Part shown: one piece after another, positions 2,196 through 43,061 of the stretch
Position numbering within the stretch: position 1 is the first letter of the stretch
How the letters are laid out: each line of letters opens with the position of its first letter
Source of the DNA: a virus
Virus record (IMG/VR): IMGVR_UViG_3300035670_000443
Span: 1 to 43,331 of that record
Length of the DNA: 43,331 nt
Strand: one strand, 5' to 3'
Position numbers and translations under genes: made by a program
The notes under the pieces: generated by a model
What the model saw: only the letters and a program-made list of their open reading frames with translations
Database searches by the model: none
What the model was told of the DNA's origin: nothing

Positions 2196-3347
2196 CTAAT
2201 CTGGCGTAATATACTTTAACAATATGTCTAATACAAGACTGAAGTCTTTACGGTGGAATGTCTCTGTATAACCAGAACCCATTTCTTGTTTTGTAATTAT
2301 ACCTCTTTCGATACCAGAAGATATAATCTCACTCTCAAGTTTGCGTATAACGTACCCATCAGGGTTCTCAAGGTAGTATATTACAGACACTGGGTACTTA
2401 CATTTCTGTTGTATCTGCTTTAATCTTTTATCTAAATTATTCGTTATACCAAATTTCAGCACATCGTCAGTAACTTTCAATAAATAAAAAGTACCTCCCA
2501 TAGTGCTTCTATAACCAACCCTTTGATTCGAGCATCTAGGGCAACCAGCGGCATAAAGATGACTGTTAGGTGCTTGAGAAAACACACCATGATCTCTACA
2601 TATGATGTCTATCTTAGTATGTTGATTTTTGTAATCAACTAATGAATAGTCATATTTATCACCATGCACTTTCTTAGCTAACGCTATGTATTCTTCTGTT
2701 GTGAACTTAAACATCTCTGCTTTAGCTAGTGAAGCACACTTAGTACAACCAATTGTAGTTAGATGGTGATCAGCCCTTTGAGTGACTACTCCGTGTAACT
2801 TACATTCATATGTAATATACTTACTCTTACCAACATACTCAGTAATAGAGTAGTCGTATTTGTCACCATGAATTTGTTTTGCCTTTTCTACATATTGTTC
2901 TTTACTGAACATTTGACGTTTGGAACTATTACTTGCTGCACAAAGTTTACACCCAACCTTACCTGATGTGTGATCATGTAAACTTTGTTTAAACACTCCG
3001 TGCTCTGGGCAAACAATCTCTATAATATCTTTAGATTTTACTTTGTCTGGCACTAGACTATAATCATATTTACCGTCGTGTGCAGAGGTTGCTTTGTCAA
3101 TATAATACTGTCTAGGTTTGCTTGTAGCTTCAGCAATTCGGTCTATTGCACAAAGTTTACATCCATGTCTAGCGGATGTATGACTATTTGGTGTAACTTC
3201 AAATATAAAATCATGCTGAATACACCGAACTTTTACCTTATTACAAGCTTTAGTGTAAACAGACAAAGAATAATCATACTTATCTCCGTGAACACTTCTA
3301 GCTTTAATAATAAACGTTTCTAAATCTTCTATTTCGTGCTTTGCCAA
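2196..3347 (-). CDS. Free-standing homing endonuclease-like protein: zinc-finger repeats plus GIY-YIG-type domain
   Basis: The 383-residue protein has five tandem repeats of about 65 residues, most containing HGDKYDYSL and several CxxC pairs (for example CKLCA, CTKCA, CPRCS), which probably bind zinc and DNA. The C-terminal part, GTFYLLKVTDDVLKFGITNN then LDKRLKQIQ, fits the GIY-YIG/T5orf172-type nuclease core with its Tyr, Gly and Arg. The start is a TTG codon at 3347 after AAGG, as no ATG lies near. It sits between the terL start and the next upstream gene, and could act as a mobile endonuclease helping spread of the terL introns. That role is inference. Coding on the same strand as terL is clear. 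Confidence 0.8.
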   Translation of the reverse strand: MAKHEIEDLETFIIKARSVHGDKYDYSLSVYTKACNKVKVRCIQHDFIFEVTPNSHTSARHGCKLCAIDRIAEATSKPRQYYIDKATSAHDGKYDYSLVPDKVKSKDIIEIVCPEHGVFKQSLHDHTSGKVGCKLCAASNSSKRQMFSKEQYVEKAKQIHGDKYDYSITEYVGKSKYITYECKLHGVVTQRADHHLTTIGCTKCASLAKAEMFKFTTEEYIALAKKVHGDKYDYSLVDYKNQHTKIDIICRDHGVFSQAPNSHLYAAGCPRCSNQRVGYRSTMGGTFYLLKVTDDVLKFGITNNLDKRLKQIQQKCKYPVSVIYYLENPDGYVIRKLESEIISSGIERGIITKQEMGSGYTETFHRKDFSLVLDILLKYITPD

Positions 3348-4448: not shown

Positions 4449-4811
4449 TTAGCCAACAGAGCCAAATTTAACAACTACACCTTCATATGTTTCTTCTTGT
4501 GTGTCAGCCATGTCTTCGACATCTGATTGTTTAGCTCGTTGAAGCTCCACTTTTTCGTTGTGGATAAGAAGCTCAAACCATTTACCGCTAAGGTAAACGT
4601 GAATCTTAATAGCTGCTCCAACATCACCACGTTCTTCTAACGTAGCTGCAAGCTCTTGTAATTTCTTTAGAGAGGCAGGACCAGCTAATGACAGCATAGA
4701 CTCTAACTTTGCTTTAGAGTGTTTACCTTTAGCCCCCGGCCTGCGTCCTGATGGGTTCCCAGACTTGCCCTTGGAAAAGCGGCCTTTGTCGTCACGAATT
4801 TCGTCTGTCAT
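4449..4811 (-). CDS. Small-terminase-like DNA-binding protein (DUF5681-type N-terminus)
   Basis: 120 residues. The N-terminus reads DKGRFSKGKSGNPSGRRPGA, the hallmark of the DUF5681 family (RFxxGxSGNPxGRP), found in phage proteins next to terminase genes. A helical middle follows and an acidic C-terminus. The start ATG 4811 follows AGAGGAATATAAT. A sigma70-like promoter sits just upstream. Its place near terL suggests the DNA-recognition subunit of the packaging enzyme, but an endonuclease and another gene lie between, and the identity rests on the N-terminal motif only. Confidence 0.6.
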   Translation of the reverse strand: MTDEIRDDKGRFSKGKSGNPSGRRPGAKGKHSKAKLESMLSLAGPASLKKLQELAATLEERGDVGAAIKIHVYLSGKWFELLIHNEKVELQRAKQSDVEDMADTQEETYEGVVVKFGSVG

Positions 4812-4834
4812 ATTATATTCCTCTTACATCCACT

Positions 4835-4863
4835 AATGTATCATTGACTTCTTGATTTGTCAA
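4835..4863 (-). promoter_or_regulatory. Sigma70-type promoter for the small-terminase-like gene
   Basis: Minus strand: -35 TTGACA (4863-4858), 17-base spacer, -10 TACATT (4840-4835), 24 bases before the start codon region. The -35 is a perfect consensus. Confidence 0.65.
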
Positions 4864-4875
4864 GAGATATTTAAT

Positions 4876-6001: not shown

Positions 6002-6229
6002 TCAGTCCCATTTCACATTCCAATAGCTACCACACTGGTTACGATAGTGTAAATTAAGCACCTCACGTAATTGTTCATAATTGAGAGAACAAACACGAGC
6101 GATCATTTCGTTATGTTCAATCCCCCAATTATGTTCATTGTAGCGTTGGTACGCTGGATGCGTCAACAACATTCGTATTTTATTTGCAAGCTTACGAATC
6201 TGTGTCTTGCTTAGCTTTTTAATGTTCAT
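6002..6229 (-). CDS. Phage protein of unknown function, 75 aa
   Basis: The start ATG 6229 follows AAAGGAAT. The longer open frame to 6325 overlaps the promoter and the end of the upstream gene and is rejected. The protein begins MNIKKLSKTQIRKLANKIRM, basic and helical, and ends QCGSYWNVKWD. It has its own promoter (6259-6286). No family is recognised. The basic helix could bind nucleic acid. Confidence 0.75.
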   Translation of the reverse strand: MNIKKLSKTQIRKLANKIRMLLTHPAYQRYNEHNWGIEHNEMIARVCSLNYEQLREVLNLHYRNQCGSYWNVKWD

Positions 6230-6258
6230 ATGTATTCCTTTATTTGCGGTATAAACAA

Positions 6259-6286
6259 AGAATAACACATGATTCTTATTTGTCAA
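6259..6286 (-). promoter_or_regulatory. Sigma70-type promoter of the 6002-6229 gene
   Basis: Minus strand: TTGACA (6286-6281), 16-base spacer, TATTCT (6264-6259), 30 bases before the start codon. Confidence 0.65.
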
Positions 6287-6309
6287 TAGGTAATTTGAAA
6301 TTATTTTAA

Positions 6310-6489
6310 TTAATATTTTGACCATTCATAGTATTTTATTACGTCAAAACTGACTAATGGATGACCAGAATATTTATTGCAAATACATACACCGTAGTCC
6401 ACAGCCTCATCCTCGTTTGTGAAGCCATCACTATTCATATTAGATAAGTAGCTATCCATAAAAGCTACACGAAAATACATTTTAATCAT
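6310..6489 (-). CDS. Small phage protein, 59 aa
   Basis: A 59-codon frame below common length cut-offs. ATG 6489-6487 overlaps the TAA of the TM2 gene (TAATG), which points to translational coupling. GGAG lies upstream. The protein MIKMYFRVAFMDSYLSNMNS continues with an acidic NEDEAVDYG stretch and ends YYEWSKY. No family is recognised. It is the fourth gene of the operon headed by the HTH protein. Confidence 0.7.
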   Translation of the reverse strand: MIKMYFRVAFMDSYLSNMNSDGFTNEDEAVDYGVCICNKYSGHPLVSFDVIKYYEWSKY

Positions 6490-6764
6490 TATTCATCTCC
6501 ATAAATTTCTAACATCTTACGATTATATTCCTCGGCAACGTAATATGTGTAGAATCCGTCAAATATAAATACACATACACTTACCATCATGACTGGTGGA
6601 ATTACCAGACTAATTACGAACAGCATAAATCGAATAATGGCTTGATCTGTCTTCTTCAGATAAAATAAGTGTAATCCCCATAGGCCGAAAAATAATCCTA
6701 ACAGATACGCCAGTGGCGTAGACTTCTTGTTTAATTCATATAAAGCTAATTGTTTTGTGTTCAT
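6489..6764 (-). CDS. TM2-domain membrane protein
   Basis: 91 residues. LAYLLGLFFGLWGLHLFYL followed by a turn, an Arg-containing second segment and DGFYTYY is the TM2 domain pattern: two membrane helices, with the Gly-x-x-Gly-x-His-x-Phe-Tyr motif in the first. Its ATG (6764-6762) overlaps the TGA of the polymerase-like gene, so translation is likely coupled. TM2 proteins occur in many phages and bacteria, and their exact role is unclear. Location: inner membrane. Confidence 0.85.
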   Translation of the reverse strand: MNTKQLALYELNKKSTPLAYLLGLFFGLWGLHLFYLKKTDQAIIRFMLFVISLVIPPVMMVSVCVFIFDGFYTYYVAEEYNRKMLEIYGDE

Positions 6765-8062
6765 TGTTTTACCTCCAACTTACAATTATTATCACTGCCA
6801 AGAATTTGCTTGTATGCGATCCTCATAGATGTTTCACCAAACTCTTTCAGTCTTTCCTGCACGATAATAGAGTCATGCACAGGAAGAACAAATTCGTCAA
6901 TATCCATGAACTGCTGTATAATCAAATCCATAATCTGTGAGTCAATATATTGCAGGTTGACACCCTTACCGCTGAACATCCAATCAGCGGCATACATATT
7001 GTGTTCAGCCAACCTGTGCAATATCTGTTTCACTTCGATTACAGGGGGAACTTTACCCTCTGCTTTCCACTGAGTAGGTAAATGCTTCTCCGTTTCTTCA
7101 TCTTTCAAACTACGCAGTTCGTGAGTAACAGCAGCTAATGCTTGGTTAAAATCCTTAGCGTTGAACATACACAAGAAAGCAATCTTACATATCTTACACA
7201 TAGCATTCTGATCATAACCATCCATCGTAATACCATACGGATCAAAACCATCAGGTAATGTAACATCACAAATCTCAGCAATCAGGCTGGGATGTAAAGA
7301 TTTAAAATCAATCTCAACCGTGTCCTCACCATCGATCTTAATCTTCTTACGGAATGTTCTTGCCATGATTGTAGTACCCTCCCCAATAACATAACTTCTA
7401 CCACCATTCACAAAAGAAGAATTATTATAAACCTTCCTTAGCTGAATGTCAAAAGAATCTTCCAACACAGAGATAATAAACTGTCTCGAATACTTGTTAT
7501 ACTTGTTAAGCATAGCAACGAGCTTCTTTTGCTGATGACCTAAAGGTTTCTCGATTAAATTCTTATCCTTGTCTCTTACTTGGATTACATCGGGTATTGT
7601 TGGTAATTCAATCAGATTAGGGTAACACGCTCTGATCTTGTCCTCTAAGAATTTAGACATAGACAGAAATGTTGGTTCTACCTTGTCAGGCATTAGTTTA
7701 CCACCATAACCTCTGGTGTTCTCTTTCCATGTCTTAACACCACCAAGTTCAAGTGTAGTTAACCCTGTTTCACATAACCACTGCAACACTTCCTTAAAAG
7801 CTGAATAGCTTACCTTTCTTCCTGTATCGACTCCGTTATAGATGGTCGATTTAGAGAAACTACACTTGTCTAGTGTTATGCTCACCTTAGCCCTATTTGA
7901 CTTAACACTGAAGCTTAGGTTGTAAATAATGCAAGCGATAGCATTACGAATCTTAGTTCGCTTAACACCTTTAAGTTGAACATTATACCAACTCTCATAC
8001 TCAACAACCAATTCGTCAACTAAACTATTTATATACTTATCTAATTTATATTCAATCCACAT
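6761..8062 (-). CDS. Small palm-domain polymerase-like protein
   Basis: 433 residues. VEIDFKSLHPSLIAEI (Asp252) matches motif A of template-dependent polymerases, and LPVHDSIIV (His396-Asp397-Ser398) matches motif C of family A enzymes, usually HDE. GVNLQYIDSQIMDLIIQQF before it is typical of the family A palm. Residues 1-130 contain STIYNGVDTGRKVSYSAFKE and look like a winged-helix DNA-binding part. There is no 3'-5' exonuclease domain, and the length is far below DNA polymerase I. The phage encodes a full T7-type polymerase at 40950, so this is a second, specialised enzyme, perhaps for priming, repair or a satellite-like replicon. Assignment rests on motifs only. Confidence 0.6.
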   Translation of the reverse strand: MWIEYKLDKYINSLVDELVVEYESWYNVQLKGVKRTKIRNAIACIIYNLSFSVKSNRAKVSITLDKCSFSKSTIYNGVDTGRKVSYSAFKEVLQWLCETGLTTLELGGVKTWKENTRGYGGKLMPDKVEPTFLSMSKFLEDKIRACYPNLIELPTIPDVIQVRDKDKNLIEKPLGHQQKKLVAMLNKYNKYSRQFIISVLEDSFDIQLRKVYNNSSFVNGGRSYVIGEGTTIMARTFRKKIKIDGEDTVEIDFKSLHPSLIAEICDVTLPDGFDPYGITMDGYDQNAMCKICKIAFLCMFNAKDFNQALAAVTHELRSLKDEETEKHLPTQWKAEGKVPPVIEVKQILHRLAEHNMYAADWMFSGKGVNLQYIDSQIMDLIIQQFMDIDEFVLPVHDSIIVQERLKEFGETSMRIAYKQILGSDNNCKLEVKQ

Positions 8063-8148: not shown

Positions 8149-8352
8149 TTATTCCTCCACAGTAAGGGTAAACGTGATCCCTAAAGCAACCAACAATTCA
8201 AAGAGTTTATCCATACTCACGCAATCTGTTTTAAGCCACTTGTGAATAGCCTGTCTCGATACACCAAGCTGTTTGGCTAAAGCTGTCATGGTAATCTTAT
8301 TACGTGTCATATGTACAGCCAGAATCGTTTGTAACTGTTCTTTACTTGTCAT
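8149..8352 (-). CDS. Cro/cI-type HTH transcriptional regulator
   Basis: 67 residues. MTALAKQLGVSRQAIHKWLK is a classic helix-turn-helix of the Cro/cI (XRE) class. RBS AGGAGG precedes ATG 8352. A perfect palindrome lies between the -35 and -10 of its own promoter (8374-8392), so it probably represses itself and the polymerase-like operon that follows after 86 bases. A 25-residue C-terminus after the HTH is enough for dimer contact only. Confidence 0.9.
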   Translation of the reverse strand: MTSKEQLQTILAVHMTRNKITMTALAKQLGVSRQAIHKWLKTDCVSMDKLFELLVALGITFTLTVEE

Positions 8353-8371: not shown

Positions 8372-8399
8372 AGTATAACATGGATTGTTATATTGTCAA
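8372..8399 (-). promoter_or_regulatory. Promoter with palindromic operator for the HTH operon
   Basis: Minus strand: TTGACA (8399-8394), 16-base spacer, TATACT (8377-8372). Between them lies the perfect 7-5-7 inverted repeat TATAACA-TGGAT-TGTTATA (8374-8392), overlapping the -10. Such a position is typical of an operator whose bound repressor blocks RNA polymerase. The HTH protein encoded directly downstream is the natural candidate. Confidence 0.8.
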
Positions 8400-8419: not shown

Positions 8420-8518
8420 GACAAAACGCAAATCTCTAAAATTGCGTTTTCCTCAACAGATACACACACTACCACATCAAATCTCCGATGTCAACTTATT
8501 TCGATTGACAAAACGCAA
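8420..8518. repeat. Repeated GACAAAACGCAA motif in the divergent control region
   Basis: GACAAAACGCAA occurs at 8420-8431 and 8507-8518 (87 bases apart), and its inverted core TTGCGTTTT at 8442-8450 forms a 9-base inverted repeat with the first copy. The second copy overlaps the -35 box of the plus-strand promoter. Three copies in 100 bases suggest binding sites for a regulator of the tailspike operon. Confidence 0.65.
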
Positions 8519-8768: not shown

Positions 8769-10649
8769 ATGACAATTAAGAAGTTAGTGTCGGAATATAA
8801 AGGAAGTCCAAATAATAGTAAAGGTGGGGATATTGCTGATACAGTAAATGCTATTCAGTTATGGCTTGATGCTGGTACTTCTTTCGCAGAGAGCAACCAT
8901 ACTCAAATTACGTCTGCGTTATCAGAATTTAAATCAGTAGTTATTAACTCGCTGTCAAGTGAAGTTTATGTAGATGACACTATAGTTGTACCGTCAGGTA
9001 AAAGTCTAAAAACAGTACATGGTATAAAAATAAAAATGTTACCATCTGCAAACAAGATGGTCATTTGCAATGAAGGATTGTTAAGAGCTTTTTCAACTGC
9101 AACAATGTCTTGGTCTGCTGCAAATGGGCGTAGATTTACCATCACATGGACTAATCATGGATTGTCTATTGGTGATGTATTTTGCATCCAAGGTGCAACA
9201 CCGGTTGAATTCAACACATGCTTTACAGTGGCATCAGTAACCAACAGTAGCACATTTGATGCTTACGCCAACGAAACTCCGTCTGCCGCCATATCTGGAT
9301 CATTCAACGTCAAGAAGTGTGACATGAACACTTTCGTTGATGTTTCCGGTGACTATAATAAGGTTGGCGGCAATAATGGTACTGGTATTAATACGATGGG
9401 CGCTGTTTTTTCATTTATCGCAAAAAGCAGTATTAGAACCCGAATCGACAATACGGCTAAATACGCATTTCAAATTTCAGCCGCCTTAGATTGCGATGTG
9501 GATGTTGGTGGTATCTCTGAATCTGATTGCGCTAAGTTTTATGGTGCGATTAGAGATATAAGAGCAACTGTTCACGGTACGAGCTGGGATGACTGCATCA
9601 GCGTTCATTGTGCAGAATATGGTGTTTATACGGTATATCAACCAGCTGTCGGCCCCATTGAAAATATCTTTATTACTGACTTCTCAGTTCAGCAAACAAA
9701 AGCCGCTCAGTCTTATAGTGGTAACATCGTTATTTATAGTGATGACATTTACAAGATTGATAACGTCTATATTGGAAATGGAAGCGCGACAGGTCAAGGT
9801 GTTGGGCTTACAATCAAAGATGCCAGCGCATCACCACCAGCAGTAGCTACAGTGGGCAACGTGGTTGTGGAAAACGTTACTCTCGCCGGAGGCGCTGGTG
9901 TTGTTTGTGCTAGGGTTCAAACAAAGGTGAAACGCCTTGAATTGAGAAACCCTAACTTTGTAAATTCTGACATATCTGCTCGCATCATGGATATAGAAGC
10001 TGCTGGCATTGTTGATGTGTTTTTAGTAAATGGTATTGTCTTTGATGCGACTAAATACACCGGTTCAACTGTTAACATGTTCAACATTGTAGGTTCTGTT
10101 GATAAAGTGACAATTACTGGCGCACAGATTAAAGGTGACGCAACTGGGAAATTCCTCAAGTTGCTTCAGTTAGGTACTAATGCCGTGCGTAGTGTTGTAT
10201 TGAACGGATCTTTCAGTTATCTGAACGTATTGGTTGATACTCAAGCAGGCGCATCATTAAAGCACTCCATTACTTATGATAGCTGCGTTGTGGATAACTG
10301 TGAAAGCGGTGTGCTTGCTCGGTCTCCAGCTAACGTTTACCTGAACACAAGCAGATTCACATCCGTTGCGAACGGAGCTGCCCGCTCTGCTGCGTCTGGG
10401 AATCTTATTCAGGTTTATGACTACGGTAGCCAATATTCATCAGCTAACGCGTTATCTGCAGTGGCTGGCGGACTTGTTCAGCCGATGACGCCAACAACAA
10501 ATGCGAATATCACCAACGCAATAGTGAACAAAGCTGCGGGAGCTTTTGCATTTAGCACCACTGCCGCTGGCACAATTCCTGCCAACAGACCCGTTGTTTG
10601 CGATGGCACGAACTGGAAAGATATGACAAACTTGAGTAATGTGTTTTAA
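8769..10649 (+). CDS. Tailspike / tail fibre protein with predicted right-handed beta-helix
   Basis: 626 residues. The N-terminus (MTIKKLVSEYKGSP) begins like capsid- or tail-binding domains of phage spikes. From about residue 60 the sequence is a long series of short beta strands with repeating V-x-I/N patterns, for example VDVGGISESDCAKFYGAI and IYKIDNVYIGNG, as in pectate-lyase-like beta-helix spikes that bind or cut surface polysaccharide. Ala/Ser/Thr-rich C-terminal repeats (NAIVNKAAGAFAFSTTAAG) fit a trimerising end. No catalytic residues can be assigned by eye. GC content looks higher than in neighbouring genes, in line with exchange of host-range modules. A strong terminator follows. 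Confidence 0.85.
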   Translation: MTIKKLVSEYKGSPNNSKGGDIADTVNAIQLWLDAGTSFAESNHTQITSALSEFKSVVINSLSSEVYVDDTIVVPSGKSLKTVHGIKIKMLPSANKMVICNEGLLRAFSTATMSWSAANGRRFTITWTNHGLSIGDVFCIQGATPVEFNTCFTVASVTNSSTFDAYANETPSAAISGSFNVKKCDMNTFVDVSGDYNKVGGNNGTGINTMGAVFSFIAKSSIRTRIDNTAKYAFQISAALDCDVDVGGISESDCAKFYGAIRDIRATVHGTSWDDCISVHCAEYGVYTVYQPAVGPIENIFITDFSVQQTKAAQSYSGNIVIYSDDIYKIDNVYIGNGSATGQGVGLTIKDASASPPAVATVGNVVVENVTLAGGAGVVCARVQTKVKRLELRNPNFVNSDISARIMDIEAAGIVDVFLVNGIVFDATKYTGSTVNMFNIVGSVDKVTITGAQIKGDATGKFLKLLQLGTNAVRSVVLNGSFSYLNVLVDTQAGASLKHSITYDSCVVDNCESGVLARSPANVYLNTSRFTSVANGAARSAASGNLIQVYDYGSQYSSANALSAVAGGLVQPMTPTTNANITNAIVNKAAGAFAFSTTAAGTIPANRPVVCDGTNWKDMTNLSNVF

Positions 10650-33032: not shown

Positions 33033-34031
33033 TTACTCACCCCCATCAACAATATTTAACCTCGCAAATTCTCCATGATGTTTCAGTGCTAATTCATTAT
33101 ATGCTAACGCAGCTTCTTTTTCTGTTTCGCATAACTTCACAAATGATCTATTACCTACCCTGATTATAGCTTTCCAAGGTTTCCATGACGCTTTCTTTGG
33201 TTTCGGTCTACTCTTATCAAAAATCACTCCTTTGTACTTCGATACTGTACGGGTTTTTGTTTTAGCAGAATTAACACTATTTTCCCAAGTTGTTGCCAGT
33301 CTTAGGTTAAATCTTACATTATTCAGTGGGTTTCCGTCTATATGGTCTATAACATAATTTGAAAAATTAGTACAACCAAATACTAGATGATGTAAACGAT
33401 AACCCCGTCTTTCATTGAGACTCTGGGTAGACCCTTTAATTTTTGCATATACATATTTGTTTGCACATAGAGAAACGTAGTCGTTTTCATCTACAATAAA
33501 AGGGTAGTCTATCCAGTATTCATAGAAATCCTTGTCAACTAATGTTTCTCCGCATACTCCAATTATCTCTGTGCTTCCTTTTCTGAATTCCATAACAGGC
33601 AGTTTCATCACTTCAGGGTTATCTGTAGAACCATTCCAATTTTGAATAACATCAGTAAATCGTTTCCAGAACTTATTCGATGATTTACTTGATGGTACAC
33701 ATCCACAACTTGTTTTCATCCCAAGAGAAAGTTGAGATCTGTCTGGATTGAATAAATTGCCACAGTCGCACATCATTGTAGGTCTTACTGGATTTTCTAA
33801 CCCTACAACCACCAGTTTTCCAAACCTATCTCCCATGTTCACAGAAACTTCTTCTGAAGACCTGTACTGTTTCAGTTTAACGTTTCCTTCGATAATTCTG
33901 TGTTTTGGAATATCTTCCCTGATTGTTCCGTCTGTAAACTTGACAGTGTAGTTACCTTTACCGGACATTCCAATAACAGAGTATTCAATTCCTTGTTTAT
34001 TAGTATTCGTAAAACCTATTTCTAATTTCAT
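33033..34031 (-). CDS. HNH homing endonuclease with AP2 domain
   Basis: 332 residues. LHHLVFGCTNFSNYVIDHID then GNPLNNVRFNLRLATTWENS is the HNH core of phage homing enzymes (H, DHxDGNxxNN). KYKGVIFDKSRPKPKKASWK to RSFVKLCETEKEAALAYNEL is an AP2 DNA-binding domain. A Cys-rich part (MCDCGNLFNPDR..SCGC) near residue 90 may be a zinc finger. ATG 34031 follows TGAGGAAAATTA. It is a free-standing mobile gene placed after the terminator of the next upstream gene. Confidence 0.88.
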   Translation of the reverse strand: MKLEIGFTNTNKQGIEYSVIGMSGKGNYTVKFTDGTIREDIPKHRIIEGNVKLKQYRSSEEVSVNMGDRFGKLVVVGLENPVRPTMMCDCGNLFNPDRSQLSLGMKTSCGCVPSSKSSNKFWKRFTDVIQNWNGSTDNPEVMKLPVMEFRKGSTEIIGVCGETLVDKDFYEYWIDYPFIVDENDYVSLCANKYVYAKIKGSTQSLNERRGYRLHHLVFGCTNFSNYVIDHIDGNPLNNVRFNLRLATTWENSVNSAKTKTRTVSKYKGVIFDKSRPKPKKASWKPWKAIIRVGNRSFVKLCETEKEAALAYNELALKHHGEFARLNIVDGGE

Positions 34032-38879: not shown

Positions 38880-39165
38880 ACAAAAACGTCAAGAGATTCT
38901 TGACATCTTGGAATATTTTGGATTTGAAGTAACTTTTTCTAGTTCTGTTGTTGAACTAAAACATGATGACGGTAAGGAATTTAAGCACTGTCATATTAGT
39001 TATGGACATGGCAATAACCACGGAGGTTACTTCTCAATGGTAGAATCTGAGAATATTGGTAATGTATATGACTTCCAGTTATCAGGTATTCGTAGTGATG
39101 ACTTTGAGAAAGTGAAGGGTGCATTCTGGTTATATTGTAAATTGGTTAAGGAGTATTGTGATTGA
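38869..39165 (+). CDS. Phage protein of unknown function, 98 aa
   Basis: ATG 38869 is preferred (GGGGTTATTG before it) over an earlier ATG at 38779 within the previous gene. MTIEQKRQEILDILEYFGFE then VELKHDDGKEFKHCHISYGH is a helix followed by a beta hairpin. The TGA overlaps the start codon of the primase-helicase, so the two may be coupled. Confidence 0.7.
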   Translation: MTIEQKRQEILDILEYFGFEVTFSSSVVELKHDDGKEFKHCHISYGHGNNHGGYFSMVESENIGNVYDFQLSGIRSDDFEKVKGAFWLYCKLVKEYCD

Positions 39166-40940
39166 GTGCATGGGATGATTGGAAATCATCTCTGAAGAAT
39201 GGTAAAAACCCTTGTTATGGTTGCCGAAAGAAAGGCAATGATAGATCAGGAAACAACTTTCACTTTTATGGTCAGGGTAAAGGTGGTAGTTGTTTTTCCT
39301 GTGGTTTTACTATTTTATCAGATGATGAGAAAGAACGTAGAGGTATCGAAAGTAATGAAGATCAAGAGGAGTATGAAGTGAGTACCAAAGAGCCAATTAC
39401 AGAAGCAGAACAAGAGCATATTAAAAGTTACACAGGGACTTCAGGTAAGGGTTATCGAGGTCTGCGTGATGAAATTACACATTACTTCAGGGTTCGTTAT
39501 GAATATGATGAAACAACGGGTGAACCGATTAAGCAATATGTTCCAACAACAAAAGATGGCAAGTTAGTTGGCTATAAGACTCGTAAGTTTCCAAAAGACT
39601 TTACAGCACCAATCGGTGTGACAGGTAAGGATTGTGATTTAATTGGTCAATTCCGGTTCAAGGATTCAACAGGTATTCTTTTAATTGTTGGCGGAGAGAT
39701 TAAACAATTAGCTGCCTATCAAATGTTTGTTGATGATCAGAAACGTAAAGGTAAAACACAGTATGACCCTGTAGCAGTCGTTGCACCCACAATTGGAGAG
39801 TCAGGTGCTGCTAAGCAACTGGCAAATCATTACTCTTGGTTATGTCAGTTTAGTAAGATTGTTGTTTGTATGGACTCTGACGATGCAGGGAAAGCAGCCG
39901 CAGAGGAGATTTGTAAAGTTCTGCCTAAAGGTAAGGCTTTTGTTATGACAATGCGCTACAAGGATGCTGACGAATACATTAAGTATGGCAAAGAAGAAGA
40001 CTTCATTAAGGATTTCTGGAAGGCAAGGCAGTATACACCAGATGGTATTCTAAGCAGCGCAGACCTGCCAGATCGGGCAAGAAGTGAAGCAGCAGTAGAA
40101 AAGATTCCACTACCGCCTTTCATGCACAGATTACAAGCTTTAATGGCTGGCGGTATTCCTTTAGGTCGGATTGTAAATCTGGGGTCAGCCAGCGGCACAG
40201 GAAAAAGTACCATTGTTGACGAGATGGTATACTACTGGCTATTTAACAGCCCACACCGGATCGGTATTATTTCTTTAGAATCTGATGCTGGGCAATACTG
40301 GATTAAGTTGATGTCTCGACATATAGAGAGAAAGATTGATCTGATTGAGACAGTGGATGAGAAGCTTGATCTCATGTCGCAAGACTGGTATCTTGAAAAA
40401 GAACACAATCTGGCTTATGATGATTTTGGTAATACTCGTTTTCATCTAATGGAAGATCGTGATGGCGGGTTAGACAGTTTAAAGCAGTGCATTGAATCTT
40501 TAATCATCAGTTGTGATTGTAAGGTGATTATCTTAGATCCGTTGCAGGATATTTTGGATGGTCTTTCTAATGAAGACCAAGCAGTATTCTTACGGTGGAT
40601 GAAAGGTATGATTAAAACATACGGTGTTACTTTCGTAAACGTAAATCATGTGCGTAAGTCTGGTGGAGGGCAAAAAGCGAACTCTGCTGGTGCAGACCTG
40701 CATGAAGAAGACTTCAGTGGAAGTTCGACCATTTTCAAAAGTGGTGCTTGTAATCTTATCTTTACGAGAAACAAAGAAGCAGAGGATGAACTTGAACGTA
40801 ACACAACAGTTATGAAAATGTCCAAGTGTCGCTGGACAGGACATACAAGTCCGTTTGCTGGTAAGTATTACTATGATAATAAGACACACAAGTTATATGA
40901 TTATGAAGACTGGTGTGCAAAACAGACTGTGGAGTTTTAA
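39162..40940 (+). CDS. T7 gp4-type DNA primase-helicase
   Basis: 592 residues: zinc finger with Cys18, Cys21, Cys44, Cys47; TOPRIM-type primase with GGEIKQLAA (catalytic Glu), GESGAAK and VVCMDSDDAGKAAA (metal-binding Asp pair); DnaB-like RecA helicase domain with Walker A GSASGTGKST, Walker B KVIILDPLQD and VNHVRKSGGG. It makes RNA primers and unwinds DNA as a hexameric ring at the fork. The start is TTG 39162, chosen because AAGGAG lies nine bases before it and no ATG fits; the frame begins SAWDDWKSSLKNGKNPC. It directly precedes the polymerase, as in T7-like replisomes. Confidence 0.93.
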   Translation: MSAWDDWKSSLKNGKNPCYGCRKKGNDRSGNNFHFYGQGKGGSCFSCGFTILSDDEKERRGIESNEDQEEYEVSTKEPITEAEQEHIKSYTGTSGKGYRGLRDEITHYFRVRYEYDETTGEPIKQYVPTTKDGKLVGYKTRKFPKDFTAPIGVTGKDCDLIGQFRFKDSTGILLIVGGEIKQLAAYQMFVDDQKRKGKTQYDPVAVVAPTIGESGAAKQLANHYSWLCQFSKIVVCMDSDDAGKAAAEEICKVLPKGKAFVMTMRYKDADEYIKYGKEEDFIKDFWKARQYTPDGILSSADLPDRARSEAAVEKIPLPPFMHRLQALMAGGIPLGRIVNLGSASGTGKSTIVDEMVYYWLFNSPHRIGIISLESDAGQYWIKLMSRHIERKIDLIETVDEKLDLMSQDWYLEKEHNLAYDDFGNTRFHLMEDRDGGLDSLKQCIESLIISCDCKVIILDPLQDILDGLSNEDQAVFLRWMKGMIKTYGVTFVNVNHVRKSGGGQKANSAGADLHEEDFSGSSTIFKSGACNLIFTRNKEAEDELERNTTVMKMSKCRWTGHTSPFAGKYYYDNKTHKLYDYEDWCAKQTVEF

Positions 40941-40949
40941 GGAGGCATA

Positions 40950-43061
40950 ATGCAAGGGTGGGTATTTGACTATGAAGCAGACAATCTTTATTTGTTGTCT
41001 ACAAAGGCGTGGTATGTTCGCTTCAAATCCTTAGATGGAAAGAGAACAGTAGCTATCCACCCTTTCCGGCAAACTAAAGAGGATACTAAATCACAAATCG
41101 AGCAGTGGACTAAGAGTTTTCCAGAAGGCTCTTTAGTTGTAGGCCATAATATTCTTGGATATGACTTATGGGTTCAGTGGAAACTTTTTGATGTGGTTCC
41201 CAAAGTTGGTAAAGGTGGGTTTGACTGGTTGTGTGGTCACAAAGTTCAGTATGTTGACACATATGTTCTTTCACAGTATCTGAACCCTGATAGTCCATTC
41301 CATTCTCTTGAATACCTCTCTAGGGGTTCAGAAGATGAGAAAATGGATTACCGGAACAAACTGATTGAGCTAGGTGTTATGACAGGTAAAGAGGAAAAAG
41401 GTTTTGAATTCTCTTTCTGGCACGAACTAATGGCTCAGTACTGTGACGACGATGTGGATGCTACTATTGGCGTGTTTAATCGTTTGTGGGCGAAAGCAGA
41501 AACGTTATATGGTAATGAGTGGGTTCACAAGTCATTTCGCCAGCTTCAGAAAGATTACTGGCTTTACAGCGCACAGGCATATACTGGGGCACCATTCAAC
41601 ATGGAAAAAGCCAAAGCACTTATCGCCAAGTGCGAAGATGAGATGAGTAAACTGAAAGCTGAAGTTGAGCCGCATTTACCACCTCGCCCATTAAAGGCAG
41701 CAGAAGAATCTTTTTATAGAATCCCTGCTAAACCTTATAAGAAAGACGGCACATTTAGCGCCACATTTGAAAAGTGGTTAGAGAGGCATAGTGCGACTTT
41801 CGAGGACGGTAAAATCAAAGCGTACGGTTTTGAGGTTGAGCTTAAAGCTGGTGAAATTCTGCCAGTTAAACTCCCTTTAGAGATTGATGATAATATGGAG
41901 CTAAAGCAGTATTTCCTTGATTCTGGATGGAAACCACATGATGATTTCTGGAACTTCAAGAAAGGCCCAGATGGGAAACCGATTCGTGAAAATGGCAAGT
42001 ATGTAAAAACTACACCCAAGATTGCACACCAAGGTAAGATATGCCCTAACCTTGCTAAGATTGATGGTGAGATACCTAAAAAGGTTGTTAAGTTTTTATC
42101 ATATAGGAATCGACTAGGTGTAGTGACAGGTTGGGTAAATAACTGGCGTATGGAATTTGATCAACGACTGAGTGCAGAGATTAGTGGGTACACACCTACA
42201 TTCAGGGTTAAACATAAAACCCTAACTAACTGCCCTAAAGCTTCTCCAGACGTTTTGCTTGGTGAAGAAATGCGCGATTTGTTTTATGCACCAGAAGGTT
42301 ATTGGTATATTGGAACAGATGCTGCTGCGCTAGAAAACAGAACAGTGGCAAGTTATACAACAAAATACGATAACGGTAAGTTTGCTGACCTTGTGTTGAA
42401 TGGTGACTCGCACAGCTTCAACGCTTTTGCATTCTTTCCTCATTTGCACGACAGGTTTGATATTAACGATCAAACACTCAAGGATAACCCTGACTTTAAA
42501 CCGTTCAGGAATAAAGCCAAAACTGGTGCTTACCTTTTAGCATATGGTGGTGGTGTAGCTAAACTGGCAAGTAGTCTTGGCTTGAGTAAGGTAGAGGCAC
42601 AGTCTTCTTACGATAACTACTGGAACATGAATGAGGGGCTTGGAAAGCTGAAACAGAATATTGAAAAGTATTTTGACACCAAAGGGCAAAAGAAGTATAT
42701 CCCTGCTTGGGATGGCCGTATGCTTTGTGCAAGGGGTAAGAATATTTTGATCAATCTTGCAGGCCAGTCTTGTGGAGCTGTTGCCATGTCTTTAGCTGCT
42801 TGCTTAATGGATGCAAAACTTGGAGATTTATTGTTGGATGAGTTAGGCAGACCTTACTACCTCTATAAAGGTAAAAAAGTCTTTAGAATCAGTCTAGTGC
42901 ATGACGAATACTCTTGGCTTGTTGAAGACGGTATTAACGAAGAAGTTCGCTCAATGTCTGTTGATTGTATAGTAAAGGCTGGGGAATTTCTAAAACTACC
43001 ACTTCCGCTCGACGGTGAGGGAAAAATGAGTTTTGAAGGTAGCTGGAAAGATGTTCATTAA
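40950..43061 (+). CDS. Family A DNA polymerase, T7 gp5-like
   Basis: 703 residues, the size of T7 gp5 (704). N-terminal 3'-5' exonuclease: VFDYEAD (Asp7, Glu9), VVGHNILGYD and YCDDDVDAT (exo III). Polymerase: IGTDAAALENRTVAS (motif A Asp), RNKAKTGAYLLAYGGG (motif B, Arg, Lys, Tyr), LVHDEYSW (motif C His-Asp-Glu). All catalytic residues are present, so it is probably the replicative polymerase. ATG 40950 follows AAGGAGGCATA. It works with the preceding primase-helicase; a processivity factor (thioredoxin in T7) cannot be read from sequence. An HNH-type mobile gene follows. Confidence 0.95.
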   Translation: MQGWVFDYEADNLYLLSTKAWYVRFKSLDGKRTVAIHPFRQTKEDTKSQIEQWTKSFPEGSLVVGHNILGYDLWVQWKLFDVVPKVGKGGFDWLCGHKVQYVDTYVLSQYLNPDSPFHSLEYLSRGSEDEKMDYRNKLIELGVMTGKEEKGFEFSFWHELMAQYCDDDVDATIGVFNRLWAKAETLYGNEWVHKSFRQLQKDYWLYSAQAYTGAPFNMEKAKALIAKCEDEMSKLKAEVEPHLPPRPLKAAEESFYRIPAKPYKKDGTFSATFEKWLERHSATFEDGKIKAYGFEVELKAGEILPVKLPLEIDDNMELKQYFLDSGWKPHDDFWNFKKGPDGKPIRENGKYVKTTPKIAHQGKICPNLAKIDGEIPKKVVKFLSYRNRLGVVTGWVNNWRMEFDQRLSAEISGYTPTFRVKHKTLTNCPKASPDVLLGEEMRDLFYAPEGYWYIGTDAAALENRTVASYTTKYDNGKFADLVLNGDSHSFNAFAFFPHLHDRFDINDQTLKDNPDFKPFRNKAKTGAYLLAYGGGVAKLASSLGLSKVEAQSSYDNYWNMNEGLGKLKQNIEKYFDTKGQKKYIPAWDGRMLCARGKNILINLAGQSCGAVAMSLAACLMDAKLGDLLLDELGRPYYLYKGKKVFRISLVHDEYSWLVEDGINEEVRSMSVDCIVKAGEFLKLPLPLDGEGKMSFEGSWKDVH

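Follow-up and report, generated by a model that had tools for sequence, protein, structure and literature searches.

The protein encoded at positions 6761-8062 (minus strand) of the window, by which we mean the whole stretch of 43,331 nucleotides of viral DNA analyzed here, is a member of the divPolA2 family of phage polymerases, and relatives of this protein are found in bacterial chromosomes, where small elements that integrate at tRNA genes carry the polymerase and an integrase as their recurrent genes. Taking all lines of the analysis together, we give about an even chance to the reading in which the protein would work as an accessory priming/replication enzyme.

The source record is an uncultivated virus contig of 43 kb, and among named phages Pseudomonas phage vB_PsaM_M1 has the closest regular DNA polymerase (43%). 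An earlier, sequence-only reading had described the open reading frame in question as a minimal family A-like polymerase of 433 residues, bearing the motifs IDFKSLHPSL and VHDS and lacking an exonuclease domain, in a genome that already has a full T7-type polymerase. The frame, which begins with ATG, and its motifs (residues 251-260 and 395-398, respectively) were found as described, and the regular polymerase was located at 40950-43061 on the plus strand (703 aa, with an exonuclease region; phrog_17, E 2.4e-75), adjoining a primase/helicase gene at 39162-40940 (plus strand; phrog_239, E 3e-172). The overlap coupling noted in that reading was also confirmed: the start of a gene for a TM2-domain membrane protein (6489-6764, minus strand, 91 aa; PF05154, E 5.8e-8, above the cut-off) overlaps the polymerase stop by 4 nt (ATGA), and an ORF of 59 aa without family match (6310-6489, minus strand) shares 1 nt with the TM2 gene. 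The operon-like run ends with an ORF of 107 aa, also without family match (6002-6325, minus strand). Pfam and PHROG searches returned no family for the small neighbor proteins and no helicase in the operon, and neither an SSB-like (MP) nor a helicase partner was seen beside the polymerase gene.

The first gene of the operon, at 8149-8352 on the minus strand, encodes a Cro/CI-type helix-turn-helix protein of 67 aa (HTH_3, PF01381, E 2.6e-7), in agreement with the Cro-like regulator proposed earlier. It is preceded by a near-consensus sigma-70-type promoter, TTGACA-16-TATACT (8372-8399, minus strand; 11 of 12 positions), although promoter matches in the region are no more numerous than in shuffled sequences. 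The region that separates the operon from the divergent gene contains a perfect, operator-like palindrome, AAAACGCAA-N10-TTGCGTTTT (8423-8450), and a further, third half-site is found at 8510-8518. Over the whole window the half-site was counted four times, where 0.63 occurrences would be expected; none of 100 shuffles reached this count. The palindrome is a candidate operator for the Cro-like protein. The sequence-only reading had further suggested that regulator, polymerase and TM2 protein form a module. Here the outcome was negative, as neither the TM2 protein nor the small proteins had a counterpart beside any homologue fetched, a tblastn search with the TM2 protein over 50,697 phage records returned nothing, and, among the homologues fetched, just one other phage has an HTH homologue ahead of its polymerase gene. 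Since TM2 is conserved with the polymerase nowhere and the HTH gene in a single other phage, the trio is not a system, and a conserved HTH-Pol-TM2 module was rejected. The other phage is a barbavirus-like contig (L062), in which the Cro-like HTH gene at 4659-4865, similar to that of the window (phmmer E 3e-10), stands before the polymerase gene.

The window polymerase is matched over its full length by PHROG_4756 (E 2e-81), a family of "unknown function" with no member in 14 control genomes. By tblastn, homologues occur in 287 phage records, with hosts that include Vibrio, Rheinheimera (barbaviruses), Aeromonas, Pseudoalteromonas and Shewanella; that of Vibrio phage ICP1 is ORF100, and among the matches listed the phage homologues are annotated as hypothetical or carry no annotation. 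No model in Pfam, NCBIfam or PADLOC matched the polymerase, PDB sequence searches with the single sequence and with an eight-sequence profile gave no match, and a profile comparison with the phage's own regular polymerase was not significant. The best BFVD match was a barbavirus protein named "DNA polymerase", the barbavirus Barba31A provided a structural match (E 7e-37), and the divPolA2 protein of Barba19A aligned with 30% identity over 97% of the window protein (tblastn, E 4e-53).

The divPolA2 family was named by Yutin et al. in 2024 (Virol J, section "Two novel phage PolAs", PMC11348598), and that section describes a polymerase additional to the regular one, with up to three paralogues per phage and an active palm, for which a role in repair or RNA synthesis was suggested. 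The window protein shares with it an A-family palm with motifs A, B and C, the lack of an exonuclease, a separate N-terminal globular domain, a place as second to a regular DNA polymerase and a variable neighborhood. The two differ in that the regular polymerase of the window phage is of PolA type, whereas barbaviruses have PolB, and in the Cro-like repressor, palindrome, TM2 operon and Cys within RxxxK that are found in the window. The same section reports no detectable similarity for the N-terminal domain, which in the window protein is weakly winged-helix-like, and does not mention chromosomal relatives.

To model the fold, AlphaFold2 was run on a 47-member alignment, and the full-length model reached a pLDDT of 89 and a pTM of 0.78. 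Among the Foldseek matches listed against the PDB, all were A-family DNA polymerases (E 1e-6 to 4e-4), and VIA-align gave Z values of 14.9 for yeast mitochondrial RNA polymerase, 14.1 for the Plasmodium apicoplast polymerase and 13.0 for T7 RNA polymerase, which leave the RNA-polymerase and A-family DNA-polymerase branches tied. The model thus returns the A-family fold expected from the motifs rather than an unrelated one, and the window protein almost certainly adopts an A-family/T7-RNAP-type polymerase fold with palm and fingers. In place of the thumb and exonuclease of PolA, the model has an N-terminal domain of helices and beta hairpins (approximately residues 30-135; 7658-7975, minus strand). 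When the N-terminal 152 residues were modelled alone (pLDDT 89.6), the matches were mostly winged-helix proteins, at low scores (VIA Z 5.5-6.4; best Foldseek E 0.08), and no polymerase thumb was among the matches listed; the domain is therefore described here as weakly winged-helix-like in its predicted structure, which falls short of proof.

Residue conservation was assessed in 47 members drawn from IMG/VR and GTDB genomes. Gly221, Arg222, Arg238, Asp252 and Lys293 are invariant, and Glu250, Asp274, Tyr276, Arg289, Asn301, Asp374, Ser375, His396, Asp397 and Ser398 nearly so. The two catalytic aspartates, whose conservation the sequence-only reading had made a check on its proposal, are kept throughout: Asp252 in 47/47 members and Asp397 in all 46 homologues that reach that position. 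On the minus strand of the window, the GGR hairpin (residues 220-222) lies at 7397-7405, and its Arg222, present like Gly221 in 47/47, corresponds to the arginine in the "TGR" hairpin of PolA. Motif A, EIDFKSLHP (residues 250-258; 7289-7315, minus strand), carries Asp252 and, at D+5, His257; the family pattern is D-F/Y-x-x-L-H, with His at D+5 in 38/47 members, the position at which T7 gp5 and the window phage's own polymerase have Glu (D457 and E462 are invariant in the regular-polymerase alignment, A5). Motif B, on the fingers helix (residues 289-301; 7160-7198, minus strand), holds the invariant Lys293, with Cys289 and Asn301; the residue at K+8 is Asn in 43/47 members and Tyr in T7 gp5. 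Motif C, VHDS (residues 395-398; 6869-6880, minus strand), contains Asp397 and reads HDS(F) instead of the HDE of PolA DNA polymerases, HDSF at this motif being a feature of T7-type RNA polymerases. The residues that help known A-family enzymes to select the sugar are thus replaced and the metal ligands kept, with a possible effect on the choice between dNTP and NTP. The window copy also departs from its own family: its codon at 7196-7198 encodes Cys289, at a position that is Arg in 53 of 54 relatives and Lys in the remaining one, so that Cys is unique among the 55 sequences. Read from sequence, Cys289 in place of the RxxxK arginine is a real argument against full activity of the window copy, which is nonetheless probably still catalytic.

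A scan of GTDB genomes yielded 48 polymerase loci, in Alphaproteobacteria, Gammaproteobacteria, Betaproteobacteria, Desulfobacterota, Ignavibacteria and Myxococcales. PHROG_4756 matched all five of the bacterial-genome members scanned individually (E 3e-41 to 9e-59), and this recognition of the chromosomal copies tested places phage and chromosomal proteins in one family. When all ORFs around the 48 loci were clustered, a tyrosine integrase recurred beside the polymerase in 26 loci and a serine resolvase in six, with little else. Moreover, in 16 of the 24 loci with a usable tRNA or tmRNA, the end of that gene was repeated (17-66 bp) across the polymerase gene, against 15 of 917 control windows taken at random from the same loci. 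The elements so delimited measure 2.5-14.5 kb (median 8.6 kb); 15 of the 16 carry a tyrosine integrase, in 12 cases within approximately 170 bp of the att repeat, and the cargo varies between type III restriction-modification, an AbiEii-like ATPase, a GTPase and proteins without assigned function. For L035 (Paracoccus kondratievae) and L012, no clean empty site could be obtained within the same genus: relatives share the tRNA side only, where homology starts exactly at the att core, since the opposite flank varies or has been rearranged. The polymerase is patchy in occurrence: in the Paracoccus family, 39 of 296 genomes have it, with several of the copies decayed. Chromosomal pairs are under purifying selection (dN/dS 0.09-0.22).

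Several individual loci deserve mention. Elements of 6-14.5 kb, integrated at tRNA or tmRNA genes and with polymerase and tyrosine integrase as recurrent genes, were seen in L012, L013, L015, L017, L020-L024, L026, L030, L035, L044, L047 and L051; L012 and L015 carry the type III restriction-modification genes and L013 the AbiEii-like ATPase. In a Devosia MAG (L019:818-3274), a 2.5-kb unit flanked by tRNA-Ser and 20-bp repeats contains the polymerase gene and no integrase; it may be an element that is minimal or has decayed and is mobilised in trans. In Paracoccus (L035:6936-9005 and L046:2081-4151), the ORF immediately upstream, of 149 aa, falls into the same cluster as the polymerase family, and the polymerase gene of P. 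denitrificans is split over several frames.

These loci bear on the earlier suggestion that the window genes might be a satellite-replication module, which fares best among the functions then proposed because the chromosomal relatives sit in small integrase-bearing elements. No repeats were found around the window operon or the neighboring tRNA-Arg, and the G+C content of the polymerase gene (37.5%) is close to that of the window (37.7%); as there are neither flanking repeats nor a shift in base composition, there is no sign that the polymerase gene rides an inserted element here, and an inserted satellite was rejected.

The same reading had known of no named system to which the genes could belong. 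Names exist on both sides: the phage family is divPolA2 (PMC11348598), and the chromosomal relatives match the TV-Pol mobile elements of Iyer, Abhiman and Aravind (2008, PMC2579912). In the 2008 paper, TV-Pol elements are characterized by a minimal A-family polymerase with a conserved hairpin Arg and RxxxK, by a lambda-type integrase, a resolvase and restriction-modification hotspots; a combined primase and polymerase activity was proposed, and the hosts include Paracoccus and other Rhodobacterales. Compared with this description, our chromosomal relatives likewise have the hairpin Arg, the two Asp, the fingers Asp and RxxxK, consist of a single-protein minimal polymerase, and are accompanied by lambda-type integrase, resolvase and restriction-modification genes. 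On the other hand, that paper proposes replicative transposons, whereas the tRNA/tmRNA-end repeats found here point to site-specific integrative elements, and no D5 helicase fusion was seen. From the shared features, we infer that the chromosomal set is probably the TV-Pol set of 2008. The window protein keeps Arg222, Asp252, Asp397, the fingers Asp274 and Lys293 and lacks the Arg of RxxxK; owing to Cys289 in that position, it was not itself filed as a TV-Pol. The mobile-element context, too, was found for the chromosomal members only and not for the window phage.

The one candidate compared from a named TV-Pol phage, gp030 of Microcystis phage Ma-LMM01, gave a weak pairwise hhalign match (E 5e-4, probability 31%), and the TV-Pol link by this route is weak. 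As a remote relative, gp030 (L116:22746-24266) has the hairpin Arg, a D-x-x-x-x-H motif A, N-G at motif B and HNS rather than HDS at motif C, and its gene adjoins a transposase gene. The SCCmec pair CCPol-MP is a proven primase (PMC7581432, PMC10061031) that Iyer et al. placed in TV-Pol. It resembles the present family in that an integrative element encodes a minimal A-family polymerase with no proof-reading, CCPol priming together with its partner, and differs in that CCPol is close to bacterial Pol I, occurs in Bacillota and is paired with an OB-fold SSB and a helicase; the window family has another N-terminal domain and no Pfam DNA_pol_A match, and such partners were not seen. Pipolins (piPolB, PMC7385651) are likewise integrative, with tRNA-end att repeats, tyrosine recombinases, restriction-modification cargo and one polymerase gene, but their polymerase is of the B family, with no sequence relation.

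In a maximum-likelihood tree, 14 of the 16 phage sequences fell into one clade and the "phage" label required two changes only, which indicates an old split and not recent traffic; on this basis we rejected the idea that phages and elements exchanged the gene recently. Since the phage sequences are a separate lineage, what the polymerase does in elements is not necessarily what it does in phages. A more tentative, and in our view rather doubtful, joint reading is that the divPolA2 proteins found in lytic phages and the polymerases of TV-Pol type in tRNA-integrating elements would be one family and a third branch of the A-family/T7-RNAP superfamily, namely a single-protein primase-polymerase that starts the replication of mobile DNA, marked by a DNA-polymerase-like motif A with His for Glu at the sugar gate, an RNA-polymerase-like HDS motif C and a winged-helix N-domain; copies retained by phages may then serve to prime phage DNA or in competition with the elements. 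The phage branch was already described in 2024, and the link from phage to element appears to be new: it is made neither in the divPolA2 section nor in the TV-Pol text consulted, and no other paper making it was found among open-licence papers. It ties a phage polymerase family without explained role to the polymerase of small integrative elements, so that the 2008 prediction of TV-Pols as primase-polymerases and the 2024 question on the role of divPolA2 can be tested on the same short list of proteins. Moreover, if the chromosomal copies start element replication, a polymerase gene with a tRNA-end repeat would be a simple marker for widespread small mobile elements.

For the accessory priming/replication enzyme that we favor, the following course may be envisaged. 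A stand-alone minimal A-family-type polymerase of palm, fingers and winged-helix-like N-domain, separate from the replicative polymerase, would make primers, or extend short ones, on exposed template strands, while its N-terminal domain would take hold of template or origin DNA. Precedents for such a primase-polymerase activity are the proposal made for TV-Pols and the proof obtained with the SCCmec CCPol-MP pair. In integrative elements the polymerase would start replication after excision; in the window phage the Cro-like repressor would hold the operon shut, its lifting would turn on the accessory activity, and TM2 and the small ORFs would be local additions. Against priming it counts that the phage has a primase/helicase and a polymerase of its own, so that an extra primase is not needed. 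Enzymes that extend damaged or stalled ends (a repair or translesion DNA polymerase), or that transcribe a few phage genes, would account for a fold equally close to mitochondrial/T7 RNA polymerases and to DNA polymerases of the A family, for HDS(F) rather than HDE at motif C, and for phage neighborhoods that are variable and not among replication genes, both here and in PMC11348598. Yet motif A is laid out as in DNA polymerases (D-x-x-x-L-H), the sugar-gate position being occupied by a bulky residue, the promoter-recognition domain of T7-type RNA polymerases is missing, and the chromosomal members lie in integrative elements without repair partners; we consider such a repair or RNA polymerase unlikely.

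Less probable again is a window copy that is in decay or has no catalytic activity and serves, for instance, as a DNA-binding regulator: Cys289 at the RxxxK position, found in this copy only, speaks for it, but the frame is long and open, the ribosome site and promoter are intact, Asp252, Asp397, Lys293 and Arg222 are kept, and a 100% identical copy of the polymerase exists on a second contig, though possibly from the same sample. Defence or counter-defence, in which the protein would block other phages or satellites with TM2 as a membrane effector, seems to us the least probable. Precedents for defence RTs exist and were counted in its favor, along with the membrane protein in a repressor-led operon and the type III restriction-modification and AbiEii-like ATPase genes of chromosomal elements. 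Weighing against it, none of the PADLOC defence models (0 families) matched the polymerase, TM2 is not conserved with it, the constant chromosomal companion is the integrase while restriction-modification genes vary, and phages have up to two or three paralogues (PMC11348598 and the present analysis).

Elsewhere in the window, the match of the terminase large-subunit ORF (95-1162) to the phrog_979 profile starts only at profile position 284, and HNH-endonuclease-like ORFs lie beside it (2196-3347) and at 33033-34031; the packaging gene has probably been interrupted by a homing endonuclease or an intron. In addition, a 626-aa protein encoded at 8769-10649, with no PHROG match and a weak match to an endosialidase beta-barrel domain (E 0.008), is a possible tail spike.
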